Source: JBDRGX01 sp043817485 [NCBI: bacterium]
GTDB lineage: Bacteria; JBDRGX01
Length of the DNA stretch: 53,003 bases
Assembly (NCBI GenBank): GCA_043817485.1
Contig: JBDRGX010000094.1
Coordinates: 1-53,003 of the forward strand
Reading direction: 5' to 3'
Positions within the stretch are counted from its first letter, which is position 1. Each line of letters starts with the position of its first letter. The notes beneath the pieces were generated by a model that had not been told where the DNA came from, made no database searches, and saw only the letters and a list, made by a program, of their open reading frames with translations. The position numbers and the translations under genes were made by a program. Below are positions 898 to 51,823 of the stretch, piece after piece.

Positions 898-1836
898 TTA
901 AACCGCCTCCTGCATAATAATTTTTAAAAATATCTCTTCTAAACTCACATCCATATATTTTATTTCAAAAATAGAAATATTCTCCTCTACTAATTTTTTT
1001 ACAATTTTATCTCTAATATCTACACCTTTAACACAATCAATAATAAAACTTAATTTTTCATTAGATTTATCTTTTAATTCTACCATAGATATTTCTGGTA
1101 TTGTTTTAAAAATTTCTTTAACTTTATCTTCATCTCCTTTAATTTGAATAAAAATTTGAGAAGATATATTTAATTGTGAAGTTAAATTTTCTGGTGTATC
1201 AATAGCAGCAATAGAGCCCTCATTTATAATAATTACTCTATCACAAGTCATACTTACTTCTGGAAGAATATGAGTACTTAAAATAATTGTATGAGTGCCT
1301 GCTAATGATTTTATAAGATTTCTCATTTCTATGATTTGTTTGGGATCAAGTCCAATGGTTGGTTCATCTAAAATTAAAATTGGTGGATTATGTATAATTG
1401 CTTGAGCAAAACCAACTCTTTGTTTATATCCTTTTGAAAGACGTCCACAAAGTTTTTTTCTTACATCTATTATTCCACATATAGACATTACTTCTTCTAT
1501 TCGAGAATTTATTTTTTTATTATCTACACCTTTTATTTTTCCTATAAATTTCAGATAATCTTGAATACTTATTTCTGGATAAAGAGGAATATTTTCTGGT
1601 AAATATCCAATTTTTTTCCTTATTTCAAAAGAATCTTCTGATATATTTAATCCATCTATTACCACTTCTCCTTCAGTACAAGGCATAAAACATGAAATAA
1701 TTTTCATAGTTGTAGTTTTTCCTGCTCCATTAGGCCCTAAAAAACCAACTATTTCTCCTTTTGCAATTTTAAAAGAAATATTTTTCACTGCTGAAAATTT
1801 ATTATATCGTTTAGTTAAATTTTTTACTTCAATCAT
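898..1836 (-). CDS. ABC transporter ATP-binding protein, GldA-like
   Basis: 312 residues. Walker A GPNGAGKTT is at 34-42, the signature LSKGYKQR at 133-140, Walker B ILILDEP at 153-159 and the switch histidine at 189. The roughly 90 residues after the nucleotide-binding domain form the regulatory-type C-terminal extension usual in GldA/CcmA-like ATPases. A strong ribosome binding site (GAGGAGGGG) precedes the ATG. It is the first gene of the operon with the GldF-like permease, and a sigma70-type promoter lies upstream at 1882-1910. Family call is firm; substrate is not known. Confidence 0.9.
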   Translation of the reverse strand: MIEVKNLTKRYNKFSAVKNISFKIAKGEIVGFLGPNGAGKTTTMKIISCFMPCTEGEVVIDGLNISEDSFEIRKKIGYLPENIPLYPEISIQDYLKFIGKIKGVDNKKINSRIEEVMSICGIIDVRKKLCGRLSKGYKQRVGFAQAIIHNPPILILDEPTIGLDPKQIIEMRNLIKSLAGTHTIILSTHILPEVSMTCDRVIIINEGSIAAIDTPENLTSQLNISSQIFIQIKGDEDKVKEIFKTIPEISMVELKDKSNEKLSFIIDCVKGVDIRDKIVKKLVEENISIFEIKYMDVSLEEIFLKIIMQEAV

Positions 1837-1881
1837 AAATATTCCCCTCCTCTTTATATAAAAAATAACATATTTTTGTTA

Positions 1882-1910
1882 AAAATAATTCAAAAAAACA
1901 ATATTGTCAA
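1882..1910 (-). promoter_or_regulatory. Predicted sigma70-type promoter for the GldA/GldF-like operon
   Basis: On the minus strand a perfect TTGACA (1905-1910) is followed after 17 bases by TATTTT (1882-1887). It lies about 45 bases upstream of the ATPase start codon, and no better match was seen in the gap. Inferred from sequence only. Confidence 0.5.
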
Positions 1911-1992
1911 GAATAATTAATTATTTAAACTAATCAAAATAATTTTTGCTTTATTTTATTTTTTTTCTTAATTTAATGATTTTTTTATTATT

Positions 1993-3882
1993 TTACCATT
2001 TAATTTTAAATTCTACTCCTATTTTTTGATAACTATCATAAAGACTTGATCTCCCGTAATAATTTTCTCCTCCTACATCCCAAGAAGTCATTTTAAAATT
2101 TCTACTTAAATCATTTGGTTTCATATCTACATATTCCAAAACAAGGTTAGAATTAGGAGTTAAATCTATATCTACGCCACAAAGCATTCCTTGTGCTTCT
2201 CCAATATTAGAAATTCGTTTTTTACTTAATTCTGAATGCAAAGCTTTTCCTTGATAATCTGTCTCACCTTTTAATGTTTTTAAATATATTTTTGCCTCAG
2301 TATATTTGTAAATATTAGGATTAGAAATATATTTCAAAACCATATTTCCGACCAAATCTGTTGCTTTATTTTTTCTTTCATAATCATAAATAGGCTTTGA
2401 TTGATTAAAATCTTGAAATAAACTTTCTGAATAAATACCTTTTCCTTGTGATAACAAATTCCATCTTTCTGAAAATTGATAATTTAAAGAAATAACACTT
2501 TTCACATTATTTGTTTTTTGATTTCCACAATAATCAATATCTTCATCTAAATCTACAGAATCTTCTTTTAAAACATCTTTACTTTGTTCTACTTTTGTTA
2601 TTATTCCAGTATCTACATTTTCTAAATTAAAAGAAGATCCATTTAATTTATATTGTCTAATTGAATTTTTATCTTTATTCATTAAATAAAGTTTTTGATT
2701 AAAACCATCTATCCCTAAAAAATCTAAATTATGCAAATTTGGATCATTTTTATCAATTGTATAAATAATTTTATTTTCTATTTTTCCATTTAAAGAAAAA
2801 ACTTGAATTCTTTCAATAATTTTAGTATATTTTTCTGGTGCTATTTCTTGAATTTCATCTACTTTTTTTTCTTCTTTCTCTTGTTTTTTTTCTAAAGTTT
2901 GAAGTCTTGTTTTTAAATTTTTTATTTCATAAACATTTGGTTCAAAAAATCTAAATAACTCCCCTTCTAAAAAATTAATTCCTTTTTCATCAGAAAAAGG
3001 ATGATTTTCAAATTTTTTTTGATATTGTGACATATCTTTTACCAAAATTTCATTATTTAAAGATATGCTAAGATAATAAGGATTTTTAAATTCTGATCCT
3101 GCTAATCCATTTTTACCAAAAGAAAGTAAATATTCTCCATTAGAATTAAATTTTACTATTCTATGATTATTTTTATCTGCAATATAAACATTCCCCTCTA
3201 TGTCTACAACAATATCTTTAGGTGAATCTAATTCTCCATTTCCATCTCCATATTTACCAAAAGTTATTTTTTTTTCTCCATTAAATTTATATTTAGATAT
3301 AGAATTTGCTTCTATATCTAATACATAAATATTTTTTTCTAAATCAACAGCTATTTTAAGTTCTCGAGTATGATTTTTTTTAATTGATAAAGCATATTCT
3401 CCATCATTATCAACAATTATTGATGCTGACTGTAAACCAGATTTTTTAATTGTTATTTCTTCTAAAATAATTGTGCGAATAAATTTTCCTTGAATAGTAA
3501 AAATATGAATACAAGGGACATATTCGTATATTTTAGGATTTGTTGTTACTGGAACAAAATAAGAATTCCAATCAATTACATAAATATTTCCATCTTTATC
3601 TACAGCAATATTTTTAGGAGAATGTAAAGTTACTTGATCAGAAGAAACAATTTCTTTCATAAAAACACCTTGTTCATTCCAAATTTGAATTTTTGCATTT
3701 TGCGTATCTGAAAAAATAATATCTCCTGCACAATTAAACGCCAAATAAATTTCATCACCAAATTTTCCTGCAATAGTTCCTTTCCCTCCAAATTCTCCTA
3801 AAAATTCAATAGAAGATAATCCTAAGGAATAAGAAATCAATACTAATAGAATAAAAAAAATATAAACTAACATTTTTTTCAT
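1993..3882 (-). CDS. Exported NHL-repeat protein with barrel-like C-terminus
   Basis: 629 residues. A signal peptide (basic MKK, hydrophobic core to about residue 21) is followed by NHL propeller repeats, recognisable by strings such as IAVDKDGNIYVID, VVDIEGNVYIADKNNHRIV and GKYGDGNGELDSP. A Lys/Glu-rich coiled-coil-like stretch (about 325-350) interrupts the repeats. From about residue 465 the sequence alternates polar and hydrophobic residues and ends in FKIKW, an aromatic terminus typical of outer-membrane beta-barrels. GGAG lies 11 bases before the ATG. Propeller in the periplasm or at the surface plus a small C-terminal barrel is an inference. It is a paralogue of the next gene upstream; function unknown. 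Confidence 0.75.
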   Translation of the reverse strand: MKKMLVYIFFILLVLISYSLGLSSIEFLGEFGGKGTIAGKFGDEIYLAFNCAGDIIFSDTQNAKIQIWNEQGVFMKEIVSSDQVTLHSPKNIAVDKDGNIYVIDWNSYFVPVTTNPKIYEYVPCIHIFTIQGKFIRTIILEEITIKKSGLQSASIIVDNDGEYALSIKKNHTRELKIAVDLEKNIYVLDIEANSISKYKFNGEKKITFGKYGDGNGELDSPKDIVVDIEGNVYIADKNNHRIVKFNSNGEYLLSFGKNGLAGSEFKNPYYLSISLNNEILVKDMSQYQKKFENHPFSDEKGINFLEGELFRFFEPNVYEIKNLKTRLQTLEKKQEKEEKKVDEIQEIAPEKYTKIIERIQVFSLNGKIENKIIYTIDKNDPNLHNLDFLGIDGFNQKLYLMNKDKNSIRQYKLNGSSFNLENVDTGIITKVEQSKDVLKEDSVDLDEDIDYCGNQKTNNVKSVISLNYQFSERWNLLSQGKGIYSESLFQDFNQSKPIYDYERKNKATDLVGNMVLKYISNPNIYKYTEAKIYLKTLKGETDYQGKALHSELSKKRISNIGEAQGMLCGVDIDLTPNSNLVLEYVDMKPNDLSRNFKMTSWDVGGENYYGRSSLYDSYQKIGVEFKIKW

Positions 3883-3926
3883 TTTTATTTTTACTCCATT
3901 TTATAATTATTTGTTAAAATTAAAAA

Positions 3927-5676
3927 TTAAAAAACTGCTTTTAAGCCCAAAACAATTTTTTTTGATTCTTGTTTAAACCAACTTTTATTTGTTAAATCAC
4001 CAGTTTCATTAATATAAAAATAATTAGAAATATTAGGCATTCCTTGTGTTATTTTCAAAAATAAAGCAAATTTATCAGTTAAATCATAATCAATTTCAGT
4101 TCCATAAAAAAAAACTTCCATTATAAGAATTTAAAAAAACTTTATTTTCTAACCCAGTAATATACATATTTTCACAACTACCACCAAATAAAATTTCAAA
4201 AAACATATATTTTTTTTTATAAGGATTTTGATCTATAGCAATACTTATTCCTAATTTTTCCAACATTACAATATAATCAACTTTTTCAAAAGCATCATAA
4301 TTATACCTGAAATAAATTTCTTGATCAGAATGATTTATTACAAGCCCACGAAAATTCAAATAAATAAATTTAGTTTCATTAATTAAATTAACATTTTCTG
4401 TAAAAATATAATTACTTTTAAAACTTATTCCTATTTTATCTATTACTACATCATTTAATTCCCAATCATATTTATCATCATCATCATACCAATTATCTAT
4501 TTTTTTTTCTATTTTTTCCTTCACACAAAAAAATTTAATACATTTATCTATGTCTTTTAATCCTTCATTAATTCCTTTAATTTTTTTCTTTTCTTTATAA
4601 ACATATTTTTTTATTTTTAAATTTTCTGTATCTAATAAATAAACATTTTTTTTTATATCAATAGATTTAAAAATTAAACTTTTTGTATATTGTTCTGCTA
4701 AATTAATTTTATAAAGATTTTTTTCTTGATATTTTCCCTGAAAATCAAATATTTGAATTCTTCTCATAAGAACTTTATATTTTTTAATTTCGTCTTCTTT
4801 TTCAAAATAAGGATCATCTTTTTTCACAGAAAGATAAGAGTCATATTCTTTTATATATTCTGCTTTATCTATTACAGCAATTTTATTATCAGCCAAAATA
4901 CTCATATAAAAAGGATGAAAAAAATCAGAATTTCTATATCCTTTTTTTCCAAAACAAAAAATTTCTTTTCCTGTTGAAGATAATTTGAATATTTGATGTT
5001 GTTCAGGAACACAAAAATAAATATTTCCTTCATCATCTGCTACCATAGATGTTATTTTTTTATAAGGAGATGAAAAAAATTGTTTAACATTTCCATTCCC
5101 ATCAATTAAATATATTTTTTCTGTATCCCAAACATATAAATTTTCATCTCCAAAAACACAAAAATATATTTCTCTTTTATAATCATTTTCTACAGACAAT
5201 GAAAAATCTTTAGACGCATCTAAAACAATTTTTGCTTCTTTTAAATCAAAAGAAGATGAAAAGGGCTTTAAAAAAATGGTTTTTATTAATTTGCCTTGTG
5301 AAGAGATTTTATGAATACAAATATTATAATTATATACTGCAGTTTTATGATCTTTTGTTAAAAAATATTGATAATCAGAAACATAAATATTTCCTTTTTT
5401 ATCAATAGCAATTTTTTTAGGAAAGTTGAATTGTTCTAATTTAATTTCTGTAAGAAATTTTCCATATTCTGAAAATTGCTGAATACGAGTATTTTGAGTA
5501 TCAACAATATAAATAGAATTTTCTTTATCAAAAGCAAAATATAACTCCTTTCCAAATTTTCCTGAAGTAGTTCCTTTTCCTCCAAATTCTAAAAAAAAAG
5601 AAAGAATATTTTTTGCTTCTAATTTTTGAAAGAAAAAACTTATAAATAAACATAAAATAATTATTTTTCTTTTCAC
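3927..5676 (-). CDS. Second NHL-repeat/barrel protein, interrupted by a frameshift
   Basis: Paralogue of the gene at 1993-3882: signal peptide, then a near-identical opening (LEFGGKGTTSGKFGKE against GEFGGKGTIAGKFGDE) and NHL repeats. The main frame (4096-5676, 526 residues) ends just after a run of nine T on the coding strand (4105-4113). With eight T it would read on through YGTEIDYDLTDKFALFLKI to a stop at 3927, giving a coherent beta-strand-rich end (IVLGLKAVF). One product of about 580 residues is therefore likely intended. The start is GTG at 5676; AAGGAG is 23 bases upstream, too far to be ideal, but the GTG gives the needed basic signal-peptide head. Sequencing error, recent lesion or polymerase slippage could each explain the break. 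Confidence 0.7.
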
Positions 5677-6060
5677 TTTATTTATACTTAAAAAATGTAC
5701 TCCTTTAAATAATTATGTGTTAATTAACAATAAGTTAATGATGTATGTAAAATACATGTAAATTAATTTGTTCTATCTTTAAAATGTGGTTTTTCTATTT
5801 ATAAAATCATTTTCTGAAACTGATTTTTCTGTCACCCATTTTTTCTTTTTTGCCATATTTATTTTTGTTTTATTTTATTGCTTCCCATTCCCTTTGTCAA
5901 GTCTTTTTTGAATTTCCTAAAAATGTGCTTCTGATGATATTCCATAGCCATTTTTTTTTAGTTTATATTCCGGAATTTTTATATAAAATACTCCAAAACT
6001 CATCTAATACCAATTTGCAATCAAAAATAAATATAAGTTATCAATTACTCCCATCAACTA
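5677..6060. other. Non-coding gap between the second NHL gene and tonB
   Basis: No convincing gene on either strand; a 72-codon plus-strand frame (5850-6068) has no ribosome binding site and no recognisable content. The half near the NHL gene is extremely A+T-rich and holds the palindromes GTTAATTAAC and ATGTATGTAAAATACAT, possibly promoter or leader structure. The half near tonB has noticeably more C and G and carries one end of the short repeat family at 6007-6026. Confidence 0.5.
6007..6026 (+). repeat. Single end of a short interspersed repeat family
   Basis: ATACCAATTTGCAATCAAAA closely matches the inverted ends of the element at 48755-48865 (ATACTAATTTGCAATCAAA and ATACCAAGTTACAATCAAA). 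No partner end was found nearby, so this may be a decayed or solo copy. It lies 35 bases after the tonB stop. Confidence 0.45.
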
Positions 6061-6738
6061 TTAATTAAGTTCATAAACTATTGGCAAAATTATTTCTGCC
6101 TTCATAGGTGGTTTTGGAAATGGTGCCACCTTCTTTATGGTCTCTACAGCTTTCTTATCAAGTATATCAAACCCTGATCCTTGTTTTATCCTTATATCTT
6201 CTACAGAGCCATTTTCAAAAATAACAAAAGATACAACAACCCTTCCTATCAACCCCATCCTTCTTGCCACTAATGGATAGGAAAGGTTTTTCATTATTAT
6301 ATCCTTTATATATGCAAAATGCTCCTTAAAATATTTTATTCTTTCCTGCTCTATGGAACCAGTATCAGCCTTTGTAACAGAGTTTTCTGAGTTATTTTGT
6401 ATTTCAGAGGACTCTGTTGTGTGACTTGGTTCATTTTCAATCTTTGGTGATTCAATAACTACCTGCTCATCAAATACTAATGGTGTTACAAGCGAGGTTT
6501 GAAATAGTTTCTGCTTTTCTTCTCCTTTTTTTTCCAAGTGTACTGTCTTTTTCTTGATTATCTTTTCTTGCCTCTTTCTTATTATGACTTCTGATTGCCT
6601 ATCTAGGCATGAATTTTTTTCAATAATAAAATCAATGAAAATAACTTTATTACTCGCAAATATAAAATGACTAACACCAATGATAATAAGTATATGAATA
6701 AAAATTGACCATATAAATGCCTTAATTTGCTCACTCAT
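6061..6738 (-). CDS. tonB: Energy transducer TonB
   Basis: 225 residues from the ATG at 6738, chosen because GGAGAAGAG lies just upstream; a longer frame to 6849 runs into a palindromic repeat and lacks a site. One N-terminal membrane anchor (about 7-30), a charged, Pro-poor linker, then a TonB C-terminal domain (last 80 residues: SYPLVARRMGLIGRVVVSF, then KQGSGFDILDKKAVETIKK and PFPKPP). TonB links inner-membrane proton motive force to outer-membrane receptors; no exbB/exbD or receptor gene is in the window. Two 60-base lines I counted inside it are about 40% G+C, against about 20% in a neighbouring gene, which suggests lateral acquisition. Confidence 0.88.
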   Translation of the reverse strand: MSEQIKAFIWSIFIHILIIIGVSHFIFASNKVIFIDFIIEKNSCLDRQSEVIIRKRQEKIIKKKTVHLEKKGEEKQKLFQTSLVTPLVFDEQVVIESPKIENEPSHTTESSEIQNNSENSVTKADTGSIEQERIKYFKEHFAYIKDIIMKNLSYPLVARRMGLIGRVVVSFVIFENGSVEDIRIKQGSGFDILDKKAVETIKKVAPFPKPPMKAEIILPIVYELN

Positions 6739-6830
6739 TTTCTCTTCTCCGTTTGAAAAATTACCTGTTAGATAACAATAAATTGTATAATAATATCCTT
6801 TTTTCCTTTTAAATATTGAAATGGTGTTTT

Positions 6831-33238: not shown

Positions 33239-34450
33239 TTATTTTGCTTCTTCTAAAACTTCACTTACAACTCCAGCACCTACAGTATTTCCACCTTCTC
33301 TAATAGCAAATCTCATTTCTTTTTCTAAAGCAATTGGAGTAATTAAGTCTACATCCATTGTAATATTATCACCTGGCATTACCATTTCTACGCCTTGAGG
33401 TAAAATTATATTTCCAGTAACATCTGTTGTTCTAAAATAAAATTGTGGTCTGTATCCAGGGAAAAATGGAGTATGTCTTCCACCTTCTTCTTTAGTCAAC
33501 ACATAAACTTCTGCTTTAAATTTTTTATGAGGAGTTATACTTTTAGGAGCTGCTATCATTTGACCTCTTTCTACATCATCTTTATTAACACCTCTTAATA
33601 ATAATCCAACATTATCTCCAGCTTGAGCTTCATCTAACATTTTTCTAAACATTTCTATACCAGTTACAACTGTTTTCTTTGTTTCCCTTATTCCTACTAC
33701 TTCAACAGCATCTCCTATTTTTACTCTGCCTCTTTCTACTCTACCAGTTACTACTGTTCCTCTTCCAGTAATAGTGAACACATCTTCAACAGACATTAAA
33801 AATGTTTTATCTACATCACGAGGTGGAAGTGGAATAAAATCATCTACTGCATTCATTAAATCAAATATACATTTACATTTTTCACAATCTGCTTTTCCAC
33901 ATCCACAATTCATTGCATTTACAGCACTTCCTCTAATTATTGGTGTTTCATTTCCAGGAAATTTATAATCATTTAAAAGTTCTCTAACTTCTAATTCTAC
34001 TAATTCTAATAATTCTGGATCATCAACCATATCTACTTTATTTAAAAACACTACAAGAAAAGGAACATTAACTTGACGAGCTAATAAAACATGCTCTTTA
34101 GTTTGTGGCATTGGACCATCAGCAGCAGAAACAACTAAAATACCACCATCCATTTGAGCTGCCCCAGTAATCATATTTTTAATATAATCTCTATGCCCTG
34201 GACAATCAACATGAGCATAATGTCTTTTTGCTGTTTCATACTCCACATGACAAATAGCAATAGTTATTCCTCTTTCTCTTTCTTCTGGAGCAGAATCAAT
34301 TTGATCAAAAGCCATTGCTTTTATTTTAGTATTTTGTGAAGATAATACTTTAGTAATAGCACTAGTTAAAGTCGTCTTTCCATGATCAATATGACCTATT
34401 GTCCCTATATTTAAATGTGGTTTTATTCGTTCAAATTTCTCTCTTGCCAT
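33239..34450 (-). CDS. tuf: Elongation factor Tu with a cysteine-rich insertion
   Basis: 403 residues. GTP-binding motifs GHIDHGKT (19-26), DCPGH (82-86) and NKVD (137-140) are intact, as are the three-domain strings [16 protein letters not shown] and [18 protein letters not shown]. At 182-194, between the G5 motif and the PLPPRD linker, where a short acidic helix is usual, stands [13 protein letters not shown]: five cysteines in 13 residues that could bind a metal. Delivers aminoacyl-tRNA to the ribosome. Only one tuf copy is in this window. Confidence 0.97.
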
Positions 34451-48898: not shown

Positions 48899-49408
48899 AT
48901 GCAAGAATATACTTTTGTTTTAATAAAACCAGATGGATTATTAAAATCACTTACAGGCAATATTTTAACAAAACTTTCAGAAGCAAAACTTAGAATTATT
49001 GCAGCTAAAGTTGTTAAAGTTTCTGATAAATTAGCAAGAGAACATTATAAACATTTAAAAGATGAACCTTTTTTTGAAGATGTAATTAAATATATTCAAG
49101 GAAAAATATATGGGGAAAAAAATTATGAAAGAATATTAGCAATGATTTATGCTGGAAATAATGCTATTAAACTTGTAAGAAATATTGCTGGAAAAACTAA
49201 TCCAGAAGAAGCAGATGCTACTACTATTCGAGGATCTTATGGAAGAATTACTACTAAAGGAGTTTTTGAAAATGTAATCCATTCTTCTGAAAATAAAAAA
49301 GAAGCAGAAAGAGAAATAAAATTATGGTTTGACCCAGATGAAATAACAGAAAAAATATATCCTATTAAAACTATTAAAAAAACAATACAAATAAAAGAAT
49401 GGGCTTAA
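48899..49408 (+). CDS. ndk: Nucleoside diphosphate kinase (extended form)
   Basis: 169 residues from ATG 48899 (AAGGAG six bases upstream; an upstream TTG lies before that site). FVLIKPDGLLKSLTGNI, GKTNPEEADATTIRGSYG and the phospho-histidine motif NVIHSSEN followed by EAEREIKLWF. Usual length is 140-150; the extra residues are an insertion in the middle (about KYIQGKIYGEKNYERI) and a basic C-terminal tail. Balances NTP pools. Converges on the small peptide gene with only four bases between them. Confidence 0.93.
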   Translation: MQEYTFVLIKPDGLLKSLTGNILTKLSEAKLRIIAAKVVKVSDKLAREHYKHLKDEPFFEDVIKYIQGKIYGEKNYERILAMIYAGNNAIKLVRNIAGKTNPEEADATTIRGSYGRITTKGVFENVIHSSENKKEAEREIKLWFDPDEITEKIYPIKTIKKTIQIKEWA

Positions 49409-49412
49409 AATA

Positions 49413-49577
49413 TTAGGAAGTTTGAGGAATAGAATAACATTCAAATAAAACATAAGGACCAGAATCACATTTACCACAAGAAAGAGCTAATGTTTCAAAT
49501 ATTTCTTCAGAATGTATTTCAGGAGAAATATATTCTTTTTTTTTATTTTGATTTTTAAAAATATTTTTTGGTTCCAT
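49413..49577 (-). CDS. Small peptide with leader-like N-terminus and CxxC (possible modified-peptide precursor)
   Basis: 54 residues: MEPKNIFKNQNKKKEYISPE, IHSEEIFETLALSCGKCDSG, PYVLFECYSIPQTS. A GAGGA site lies nine bases before the ATG and a TTGACA/TAATAA promoter lies just upstream, so expression is credible. The charged first 30 residues, the PEIHSEEIFETLAL stretch and a short Cys/Gly-rich end (Cys34, Cys37, Cys47) resemble precursors of ribosomally made modified peptides. A radical SAM gene is the next gene upstream on the same strand. No family is confidently recognised; a small metal-binding protein is the main alternative. Confidence 0.65.
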   Translation of the reverse strand: MEPKNIFKNQNKKKEYISPEIHSEEIFETLALSCGKCDSGPYVLFECYSIPQTS

Positions 49578-49602
49578 TTTTATTTTCCTCTTTTAGTAAA
49601 TA

Positions 49603-49631
49603 TTATTAAATATTTTTATTTATTTTGTCAA
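49603..49631 (-). promoter_or_regulatory. Predicted sigma70-type promoter of the small peptide gene
   Basis: Minus strand TTGACA (49626-49631) and TAATAA (49603-49608), 17 bases apart, about 26 bases before the peptide start and downstream of the radical SAM stop. It implies the peptide can be made independently. Confidence 0.5.
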
Positions 49632-49663
49632 GAAATTTTTTGTGTATTAAAAAAAATTAAATT

Positions 49664-50371
49664 TTATATTCCTCTTAATTTACATTTTCCAACATTAGGA
49701 ACACACATTTTTAAAAGTGCTTCCATTTCTTCTTTTGAATAAGGTTTTATTTTTCTAATTTCTGACCCCATAGCATTTAATGGATTAAATTGTTGTAATA
49801 CAAATTTTTTTGGTGCCATTTTAGATATTTCTTTAATATCATCAAAACTATGAAAAAAAGGTATTACTGTAATTCTAAATTCATAATCTATTTTATTTTG
49901 CAAAAGAATTTTAACACTTTCCATAATTTTATCCAAAGAAAAATCTACACCACCTATTATTTTTTTATAATTTTCTTCTTTAAAAAGTGTTTTTATATCC
50001 ATTGCAATATAATCAACCAATTTATTTTTTATTAGAAATTTTATCATTTCTGGATTACTTCCATTAGTATCTAATTTGATTTTAATTTTTGAAATATTTT
50101 TTTTAATATCTTCAATGAACTGAGGTAATTCAGAATAAATAGTAGGTTCTCCACCGGAAATTACTAACCCATCAATCCAATTCAAATGTTTTTGAAAACT
50201 TTTTTTTACTATTTCCAAAGGAACTAAATCTAATTCTTCTGGATGTAAAACTAAAGTATCAGCATGACAATAAGGACACCTAAAATTACAACCAGGCAAA
50301 AAAATTACTGATGAAATTCTATCATCCCAATCAAGAAATGATGTTTCAATAAATCCCTTAATTTCAATCAT
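49664..50371 (-). CDS. Radical SAM enzyme, anaerobic ribonucleotide reductase activase (NrdG2) type
   Basis: 235 residues. The cluster motif CNFRCPYC (Cys28, Cys32, Cys35) follows the FLPGCN start typical of glycyl-radical activases; GLVISGGEPTIYSELPQFIE and KIKLDTNGSNPEMI complete the SAM-binding fold. The length fits the NrdG2 subfamily that activates class III ribonucleotide reductase. No nrdD is in the window. Because a small cysteine-bearing peptide gene follows, a peptide-modifying role is an alternative, though it has no SPASM-type cysteine extension. Confidence 0.85.
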   Translation of the reverse strand: MIEIKGFIETSFLDWDDRISSVIFLPGCNFRCPYCHADTLVLHPEELDLVPLEIVKKSFQKHLNWIDGLVISGGEPTIYSELPQFIEDIKKNISKIKIKLDTNGSNPEMIKFLIKNKLVDYIAMDIKTLFKEENYKKIIGGVDFSLDKIMESVKILLQNKIDYEFRITVIPFFHSFDDIKEISKMAPKKFVLQQFNPLNAMGSEIRKIKPYSKEEMEALLKMCVPNVGKCKLRGI

Positions 50372-50587: not shown

Positions 50588-51823
50588 ATGTTTTTGTATT
50601 TTATCTATAATATGTTTTTAATACTCATTTTCCCAATTTTTCTTTTATATTTTGGAATAAATTTCTTATTTTTTTCACACAACAAAAAATTTATAAAAAA
50701 TCGATTTGGTTTTATTGATATTAAAAGCACAAATTCTATTTTAATTCATGCTATTTCAGCTGGAGAAGTAGTCTCTACTTTTCCTTTAATAAAAGAACTT
50801 CAAAAAAAAACTCATAAAAAAATAATTCTTTCAACTGGAACTAATGCTGGTTTTATATTAGCATCACAAAAATTAGAAAATGTAGAAATAATATTTTTTC
50901 CTTTTGATTTCTGGTGGAGTATAAAAAAAACATTAAAAACAATCAACCCATCTTTAATTATAATTATGGAAGTAGAAATTTGGCCTAATTTATTATTGCT
51001 TGCTCATAAACTAAATATTCCTATTGTCATGATGAATGGACGAATATATAAAAAAGATTTAAAAGCATATAAAAAACTTTCATTCTTTTTTAAAAAAATT
51101 CTTAATTATTTCACTATTTGTGGAATGCAATCAGAAGAAGATAAAAATCGATTAATTGAAATTGGAGCCCCAAAAGAAAAAGTAATATTTTATGGTAATA
51201 CAAAATTTGATTATGATTTACCAGAAAAAGTAATATTTTATGATATAAAAATTCCTTTTAATCAACAAATAATAGTAGCTGGAAGTACTCATAAAGATGA
51301 AGATAAAAAAGTTTTAGAAGTATATAAAAATATTAGATTAAAGTACGAAAATGTTTGTTTAATTATAGCTCCACGACATTTAGATAGAATTGAAACAATA
51401 GAAAAAATTTGTCAAAATCTTAATTTGTCTTTTTGCAAAAGAACAAATATTAAAAAAAATACTCAAGTAATTATTTTAGATACAATAGGAGAATTAGGAA
51501 AAATTTATAGTTTGGCTAATATTGTTTTTATTGGTGGAAGTTTAGTTCCTATTGGTGGACATAATTTAATAGAAGCAGCAATATTTGCTAAACCAATTAT
51601 TTTTGGACATTATATGGAAAATTTCAAAGAATTAAAAAATTTATTTCTTTCTTGTAATGGTGCTATCGAAATACAAAATGTAAAAGAATTAGAACAAAAA
51701 TTCATTTTCTTATTAGAAAACGAAATAGAAAGAAATAAAATAGGAAATAATGCTTACAAAATAATTAAAAAAAATCAAGGAATTACTTTAAAATATATAG
51801 AAATGATAAAACAATGGTTATAA
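50588..51823 (+). CDS. waaA: 3-deoxy-D-manno-octulosonic acid transferase (WaaA/KdtA)
   Basis: 411 residues. An N-terminal membrane anchor, then HAISAGEVVSTFPLIKEL (with the acceptor Glu), EVEIWPNLL, NGRIYKKDLKAYKKL, VAGSTHKDEDKKVLEVY and GGSLVPIGGHNLIEAA are diagnostic. Adds Kdo to lipid A. AAGGAG stands one base before the ATG at 50588; a TTG at 50594 is better spaced (seven bases) and may be the true start. The upstream gap (50372-50587) holds a TTGACA and a rough TAGTG/CACTA palindrome near 50531-50550 but no clear promoter. Confidence 0.93.
   Translation: MFLYFIYNMFLILIFPIFLLYFGINFLFFSHNKKFIKNRFGFIDIKSTNSILIHAISAGEVVSTFPLIKELQKKTHKKIILSTGTNAGFILASQKLENVEIIFFPFDFWWSIKKTLKTINPSLIIIMEVEIWPNLLLLAHKLNIPIVMMNGRIYKKDLKAYKKLSFFFKKILNYFTICGMQSEEDKNRLIEIGAPKEKVIFYGNTKFDYDLPEKVIFYDIKIPFNQQIIVAGSTHKDEDKKVLEVYKNIRLKYENVCLIIAPRHLDRIETIEKICQNLNLSFCKRTNIKKNTQVIILDTIGELGKIYSLANIVFIGGSLVPIGGHNLIEAAIFAKPIIFGHYMENFKELKNLFLSCNGAIEIQNVKELEQKFIFLLENEIERNKIGNNAYKIIKKNQGITLKYIEMIKQWL

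Follow-up and report, generated by a model that had tools for sequence, protein, structure and literature searches.

The window, by which we mean the whole 53,003-nucleotide stretch of DNA analysed here, carries an open reading frame (ORF) for a 54-residue peptide that follows a radical SAM gene on the same strand. This arrangement had been described in the earlier note and is confirmed by the ORF list, which places 86 bases between the two frames. The genes are codirectional and adjacent, in an operon-like arrangement, and plus-strand genes flank the pair: the gene of a nucleoside diphosphate kinase ends at position 49408, and that of a Kdo transferase starts at 50588. Table 1 gives the features of the locus. 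The window has a G+C content of 25%, and an Rfam scan of it at gathering thresholds gave 0 matches. At 33239-34450 on its minus strand we observed an ORF, presumably EF-Tu-like, with a Cys-rich stretch of 14 residues that may be a lineage mark of the window's organism.

Table 1. Position and basis of the features at the peptide locus.
Feature	Position	Strand	Basis
Precursor peptide gene, 54 aa and stop	49413..49577	-	ORF; sequence MEPKNIFKNQNKKKEYISPEIHSEEIFETLALSCGKCDSGPYVLFECYSIPQTS
Predicted leader, residues 1-29, FET at its end	49491..49577	-	Putative cleavage, by analogy with LPP (PMC13381572, available text)
Y16-x-x-P19, predicted RRE-binding motif	49521..49532	-	Y and P invariant in the 11-row alignment; Y..P in 45/46 members
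Predicted core, LALSCGKCDSGPYVLFECYSIPQTS	49416..49490	-	LALSCG and one further Cys invariant in 11/11 rows; border with leader predicted
C-terminal Ser codon, one of two predicted phosphorylation sites	49416..49418	-	43/46 members end in Ser
Promoter-like site of the peptide gene, TTGACA-18-AATAAT	49602..49631	-	11/12 matches
GAGG ribosome-binding-like site, ends 9 bases before ATG	49587..49590	-	Read from sequence
Radical SAM gene, NrdG2 type, 235 aa; judged outside the peptide system	49664..50371	-	TIGR02495 score

The peptide had also been credited with its own promoter. The site listed in Table 1 is the top promoter-like site of the region, but the AT-rich stretch in which it lies holds 12 such sites compared to 10.5 ± 3.1 in shuffles, so that their number shows no excess.

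A peptide family with a common signature

A scan of genome contigs returned 10 relatives of the window peptide: four from Acidobacteriaceae, one from Granulicella, three from Terriglobia, one from Kofleriaceae and one from an uncultured delta proteobacterium. Granulicella belongs to the Acidobacteriota and Kofleriaceae to the Myxococcota. Invariant positions in the resulting 11-row alignment are Y16, P19, residues 27-35 (FETLALSCG), a single Cys beyond these and the C-terminal Ser; part of the identity over FETLALSC is owed to the patterns that seeded the scan. Profile searches of genomes at E ≤ 0.001, the weakest match having E = 9.6e-4, found the peptide in 12 of 140 genomes from the phylum of locus L003 and in 16 of 199 from the phylum of locus L001. 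Local scanning listed 46 ORFs of the family in 44 sequences, one of which is the window.

Y..P is present in 45 of the 46 members; the exact form Y..P.{7}FET occurs in 23 and a looser form of it in 42. All members except L080, L058 and L062 end in Ser (43/46), compared to 56 of 800 open frames of at least 250 aa from the same loci, a reference set in which not every frame is a gene. Because the profile itself holds the final Ser, we counted separately the 24 profile-search matches whose alignment stopped before its last position, and 21 of these end in Ser. Two Cys follow Y..P in 37 members, three in seven and four in two. In two loci, two different short-type precursors stand in tandem (L071, 9087-9419 and 9420-9632; L073, 6363-6695 and 6688-6972).

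The window peptide carries the family signature of Y..P.......FE, core Cys and C-terminal Ser, and it is recovered by profiles from which it was left out. A profile of 19 relatives found it at E = 9.4e-15 among the 901 ORFs of the window, where the next best ORF had E = 1, and a profile of 25 more distant members found it at E = 1.4e-12, both profiles being not fully independent of the window peptide because their members were found via it or via an alignment holding it. In Pfam and NCBIfam, the window peptide and 10 of the other 45 members had no family match, apart from one chance-level Pfam match at E = 0.089. Viral contigs yielded three pattern matches to the family, none of them confirmed, and the window peptide had no match in plasmids.

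The gene cassette beside the relatives

A gene set recurs beside many relatives. Its radical SAM/SPASM enzyme matches PF04055 and PF13186, its PqqD-like protein matches PF05402 and its S24/S26 protease matches PF00717; an HprK-like kinase, a PF14907 nucleotidyltransferase (match at E = 5.5e-58) and a DrrAB-like ABC transporter pair make up the rest. With cassette HMMs built from ten of the 43 peptide loci, we found radical SAM matches in 32 loci, HprK-like in 31, PqqD in 23, S24-like in 22, ABC in 12 and nucleotidyltransferase in 10; in the 33 non-seed loci the corresponding counts were 22, 21, 15, 14, 7 and 4. The radical SAM matches share the strand of the peptide and lie no more than 5 kb from it. 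The control set comprised 20 regions, each of 19 kb, that were picked by hand before scanning; they come from 14 of the genomes with peptide loci, and each shares its contig with such a locus. They gave one weak radical SAM match, one ABC match and 0 for the other four components. Radical SAM and kinase genes occur together in 29 of the 43 loci, and in 18 they are joined by both PqqD and protease. Protease, RRE, kinase and NTP transferase are all present in 9 of the 43 (L001, L002, L004, L006, L007, L008, L066, L068 and L069), several loci being short.

A large ORF with FG-GAP/fn3 matches, which may be a partner or a mere neighbour, lies between the radical SAM and peptide genes of L003 (2193-5930) and L009 (1034-5947). 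In L078, a single peptide is preceded, at about 1600-6740, by a run of two radical SAM and three HprK-like frames.

Residues of the cassette enzymes are strongly conserved. The kinase has His, the Walker Lys and Asp in 33 of 33 sequences, and its second acidic place is occupied by Glu 23 times, by Asp 8 times and by Arg twice; the protease has Ser and His in 21 of 21 and Asp in 20 of 21. Each of the three Cys of CxxxCxxC is present in 32 of 32 radical SAM enzymes, which carry further Cys in the SPASM part. The name HprK-like derives from weak matches (HprK_rel_A, 34 bits compared to a cut-off of 200), and the cassette kinase has no Pfam HPr kinase match. Its structural model (pLDDT 87.7) matches PEP carboxykinase folds first and HprK/P from rank 41, at low coverage; the PEP carboxykinase and HprK/P folds are related. 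For the protease, the best NCBIfam match is an archaeal-type signal peptidase model (42.5 bits, cut-off 51.85), and a poor structural model (pLDDT 63.4) gives weak fold matches to LexA first and then to signal-peptidase-like proteins. The PqqD protein of L008 weakly matches the lasso B1 structures TbiB1, TfuB1 and 9x90 (E = 0.003 to 0.05).

We also considered a lasso peptide. The motif SGG.DS, which we take to be the PP-loop of a lasso-cyclase-type (asparagine-synthase) enzyme, was found by motif search, with no profile, in 1 of the 43 loci and nowhere in the window, and we rejected the lasso assignment on this count. The sole instance, at L063 7342-8679, perhaps marks a lasso-type cluster with a related precursor.

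The earlier note had been undecided between a new precursor family and an unrelated small metal-binding protein. With three Cys in its C-terminal half, the window peptide could indeed be taken for an unrelated metal-binding or redox protein. That reading is weakened because the relatives sit beside the cassette: the peptide matches a family of cassette-linked precursors, most of which (37/46) have two Cys after Y..P and not three, and we now regard it as very improbable. The precursor side of the alternative fared better. Radical SAM genes stand in 32 of the 43 loci brought together by the proposed search for related peptides and their neighbours, which is not the picture of a family conserved apart from such enzymes, and a leader-core precursor from a family that the databases have not curated is supported. 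Judged from sequence, a family of modified-peptide precursors is supported because both the precursors and the cassette resemble the systems for linear polyphosphorylated peptides (LPP) and paeninodin.

The NrdG2 neighbour, orphan precursors and a proposed pathway

Within the 53 kb of the window, no kinase, PqqD, protease or nucleotidyltransferase match was better than E = 0.27. The cassette SPASM-type model finds the NrdG2 ORF only (E = 0.0015), and one ABC ATPase, 47 kb from the peptide, matches the ABC model, such proteins being common. We assign family membership independently of adjacent cassette genes because 11 of the relatives' 43 loci also have no radical SAM gene.

The radical SAM protein of the window had been likened to an NrdG2 activase, and its score bears this out: 177.4 bits compared to the TIGR02495 cut-off of 131.15, 46 bits above it, and a Pfam search at E ≤ 1 returned no match to SPASM. 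The family's own enzyme is of the SPASM type, and the suggestion that the adjacent enzyme modifies the peptide could not be sustained. Such a pair would amount to a two-gene RiPP system in which an NrdG2-type enzyme is the peptide's own maturase, with no RRE, kinase or SPASM enzyme. It would fit the shared strand, the 86-base spacing, the enclosure by opposite-strand genes and the want of a cassette in the window, but beyond the NrdG2 score itself it conflicts with the way the two genes are distributed. When the same genomes, which may be incomplete, were searched for both, the draw from the phylum of L001 had the peptide in 16 of 199 genomes and NrdG2 over the cut-off in 23, with one genome shared, and the draw from the phylum of L003 had the peptide in 12 of 140 and NrdG2 in one, with none shared. 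Thus, 27 of the 28 peptide-bearing genomes of these draws, which come from the phyla of L001 and L003 and need not include the window's own lineage, are without NrdG2 above the cut-off; in the exception, G152, it lies on a separate contig. Among 19 peptide-bearing genomes searched, NrdG2 exceeded the cut-off in one, on a different contig from the peptide.

Conversely, a search of the 24 NrdG2 loci with about 1.5 kb of flank gave no match to the peptide family at E ≤ 0.05; a single match, in L127, had E = 0.089. The motif RxCGY, which we take to be of the NrdD type, occurs in 1 of 23 NrdG2 loci, in a short frame of L095, with flanks of 1.5 kb that would miss a downstream nrdD, and no frame of at least 60 aa in the window has it. 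Five pattern matches to the NrdG2 protein in viral contigs were not confirmed. We rejected NrdG2 as the maturase on the basis of the 27 of 28 peptide genomes without it and the 0 of 24 NrdG2 loci with the peptide; the promoter-like site of the peptide gene also speaks against a two-gene system, which we consider improbable. The neighbour is most likely a ribonucleotide-reductase activase unrelated to the peptide, and most likely not the enzyme that modifies it. A link between the two may yet be specific to the window's own group, which the draws need not include.

If the NrdG2 enzyme is set aside, the window copy resembles the 11 loci that have no radical SAM gene. Six of these orphans (L051, L052, L053, L080, L082 and L083) come from genomes that have a radical-SAM-bearing peptide locus elsewhere (G001, G007, G219, G331 and G179). 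In L057 and L058 a kinase adjoins the peptide and the radical SAM gene is absent; in L071 and L072, HprK-like and radical SAM matches lie 13 to 17 kb off on the same contig; and L079 is at a contig end, with HprK-like matches on another contig of its genome. HprK-like matches at E ≤ 1e-5, some of them interrupted by stops, occur in all 10 genomes to which the 11 orphan loci belong. Lone precursors thus recur among the relatives, which suggests maturation in trans, and the window copy is probably an orphan that is matured by a cassette elsewhere in its genome.

An orphan position could also be that of a relic or decoy, in which the precursor has been kept and the enzymes are gone from the organism. 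One relative, the orphan L080, does extend beyond the usual end into other sequence. The window peptide, however, is intact at both ends, with Y..P, FETLALSCG and the final Ser in place, and its start, ribosome-binding-like and promoter-like sites are intact as well, so that we think decay unlikely. With reasonable though not full confidence, we prefer to regard the window peptide as an orphan among the precursors of a RiPP family, expressed from a promoter of its own and dependent on maturation in trans; its NrdG2 neighbour would be unrelated.

By analogy with the LPP and paeninodin systems, the PqqD-like RRE would bind the Y..P motif, the HprK-like kinase would phosphorylate a Ser (the C-terminal one or the one before the core Cys), the nucleotidyltransferase would decorate the phosphate and the protease would cut after FET. 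Going by its type, the radical SAM/SPASM enzyme would introduce a core bond, with a thioether or carbon link at a conserved Cys as the most likely product. The likely order would be binding by the RRE, then phosphorylation and radical SAM modification, then cleavage by the protease and finally export. It is tempting to speculate that the family represents a hybrid class in which a radical SAM modification at a core Cys is combined with a phosphorylated, then nucleotidylated or glycosylated, terminal Ser, and which spans the Acidobacteriota, the Myxococcota and the window's organism, with orphans served in trans; we put the chances of this at about even.

This scheme would place a nameless peptide family in a testable pathway. 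The signature of Y..P, FE, Cys and final Ser offers a means to recognize orphan precursors which cluster-based mining would miss. The window itself shows that a radical SAM gene next door can be a false lead, and the interest lies in the family and its cassette, not in the neighbour pair.

Comparison with known systems

A description of a peptide cassette with both radical SAM and HprK-like genes was not found in the titles or abstract openings of the open-licence papers listed by our searches. One of the closest known systems is the SynChlorMet set of NCBIfam, for which we found no paper using the name in the open-licence literature. The kinase-like, PqqD and radical SAM proteins each weakly match one of its models (ScmC, ScmD and ScmE), but the matches are far under the cut-offs; in L004 they reach 38.8 of 125 bits for ScmC, 29.4 of 100 for ScmD and 102.1 of 400 for ScmE.

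The likeness to paeninodin-type systems (PadeK, ThcoK, PsmK/PsmN and BsfK) lies in an HprK-like kinase, a discrete B1/RRE and, in some of them, a nucleotidyltransferase, as described in the available text of PMC9266682 and PMC10368454. Unlike these systems as described there, the relatives of our peptide have an S24/S26-type protease and a radical SAM enzyme. Paeninodin-type kinases contain His-Lys-Asp-Asp residues, and their target is a C-terminal Ser, a residue with extreme conservation among precursors having such a kinase (PMC9266682, available text); the kinases of our cassette differ in that Glu is commoner than Asp at the second acidic place. Phosphorylation of a C-terminal Ser also appears in the available text of PMC10368454, where BsfK, by contrast, targets Ser3 in a core with a terminal Asp. 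The C-terminal Ser therefore need not be the phosphorylation site of our family. In the parts of these papers and of the LPP paper available to us, HprK-type phosphorylation and radical SAM/SPASM modification are treated separately; the cassette joins the two.

The LPP system, described in a 2026 paper on the lpp cluster of Paenibacillus alginolyticus, offers a further close comparison. According to the available text (PMC13381572), the RRE LppB binds YxxP, which is needed for RRE binding, the HprK-like LppK phosphorylates core Ser3, and the signal-peptidase-I-like LppS cuts after the T of the leader end F(-3)E(-2)T(-1); the core set also includes a nucleotidyltransferase and an MsbA-like transporter, with no macrolactam cyclase. 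Beside the peptide relatives the same kinds of components occur (discrete RRE, HprK-like kinase, signal-peptidase-like protease, nucleotidyltransferase and transporter), the first four of them together in 9 of the 43 loci, and the precursors show the same succession of Y..P and, in 23 of 46 members, FET at the predicted leader end. The precursors differ in detail from those in that text. The LPP consensus is YxxPxVLxHQxIxFETxxS, with 15 residues from Y to T compared to 13 in the window peptide, where HQ is absent, and its first core Ser is at position 3 rather than 4. Our family has in addition a conserved core Cys, a C-terminal Ser and a SPASM enzyme in the cassette, and its transporter is DrrAB-like rather than MsbA-like. 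In the available main text of the LPP paper the term 'radical SAM' occurs 0 times, and LPP are said there to be restricted to Bacillota (PMC13381572). We do not class the family as LPP, on account of its different precursor consensus, a host range other than the one stated for LPP, and the additional radical SAM enzyme. Its cassette nevertheless extends an LPP-like enzyme set beyond Bacillota.
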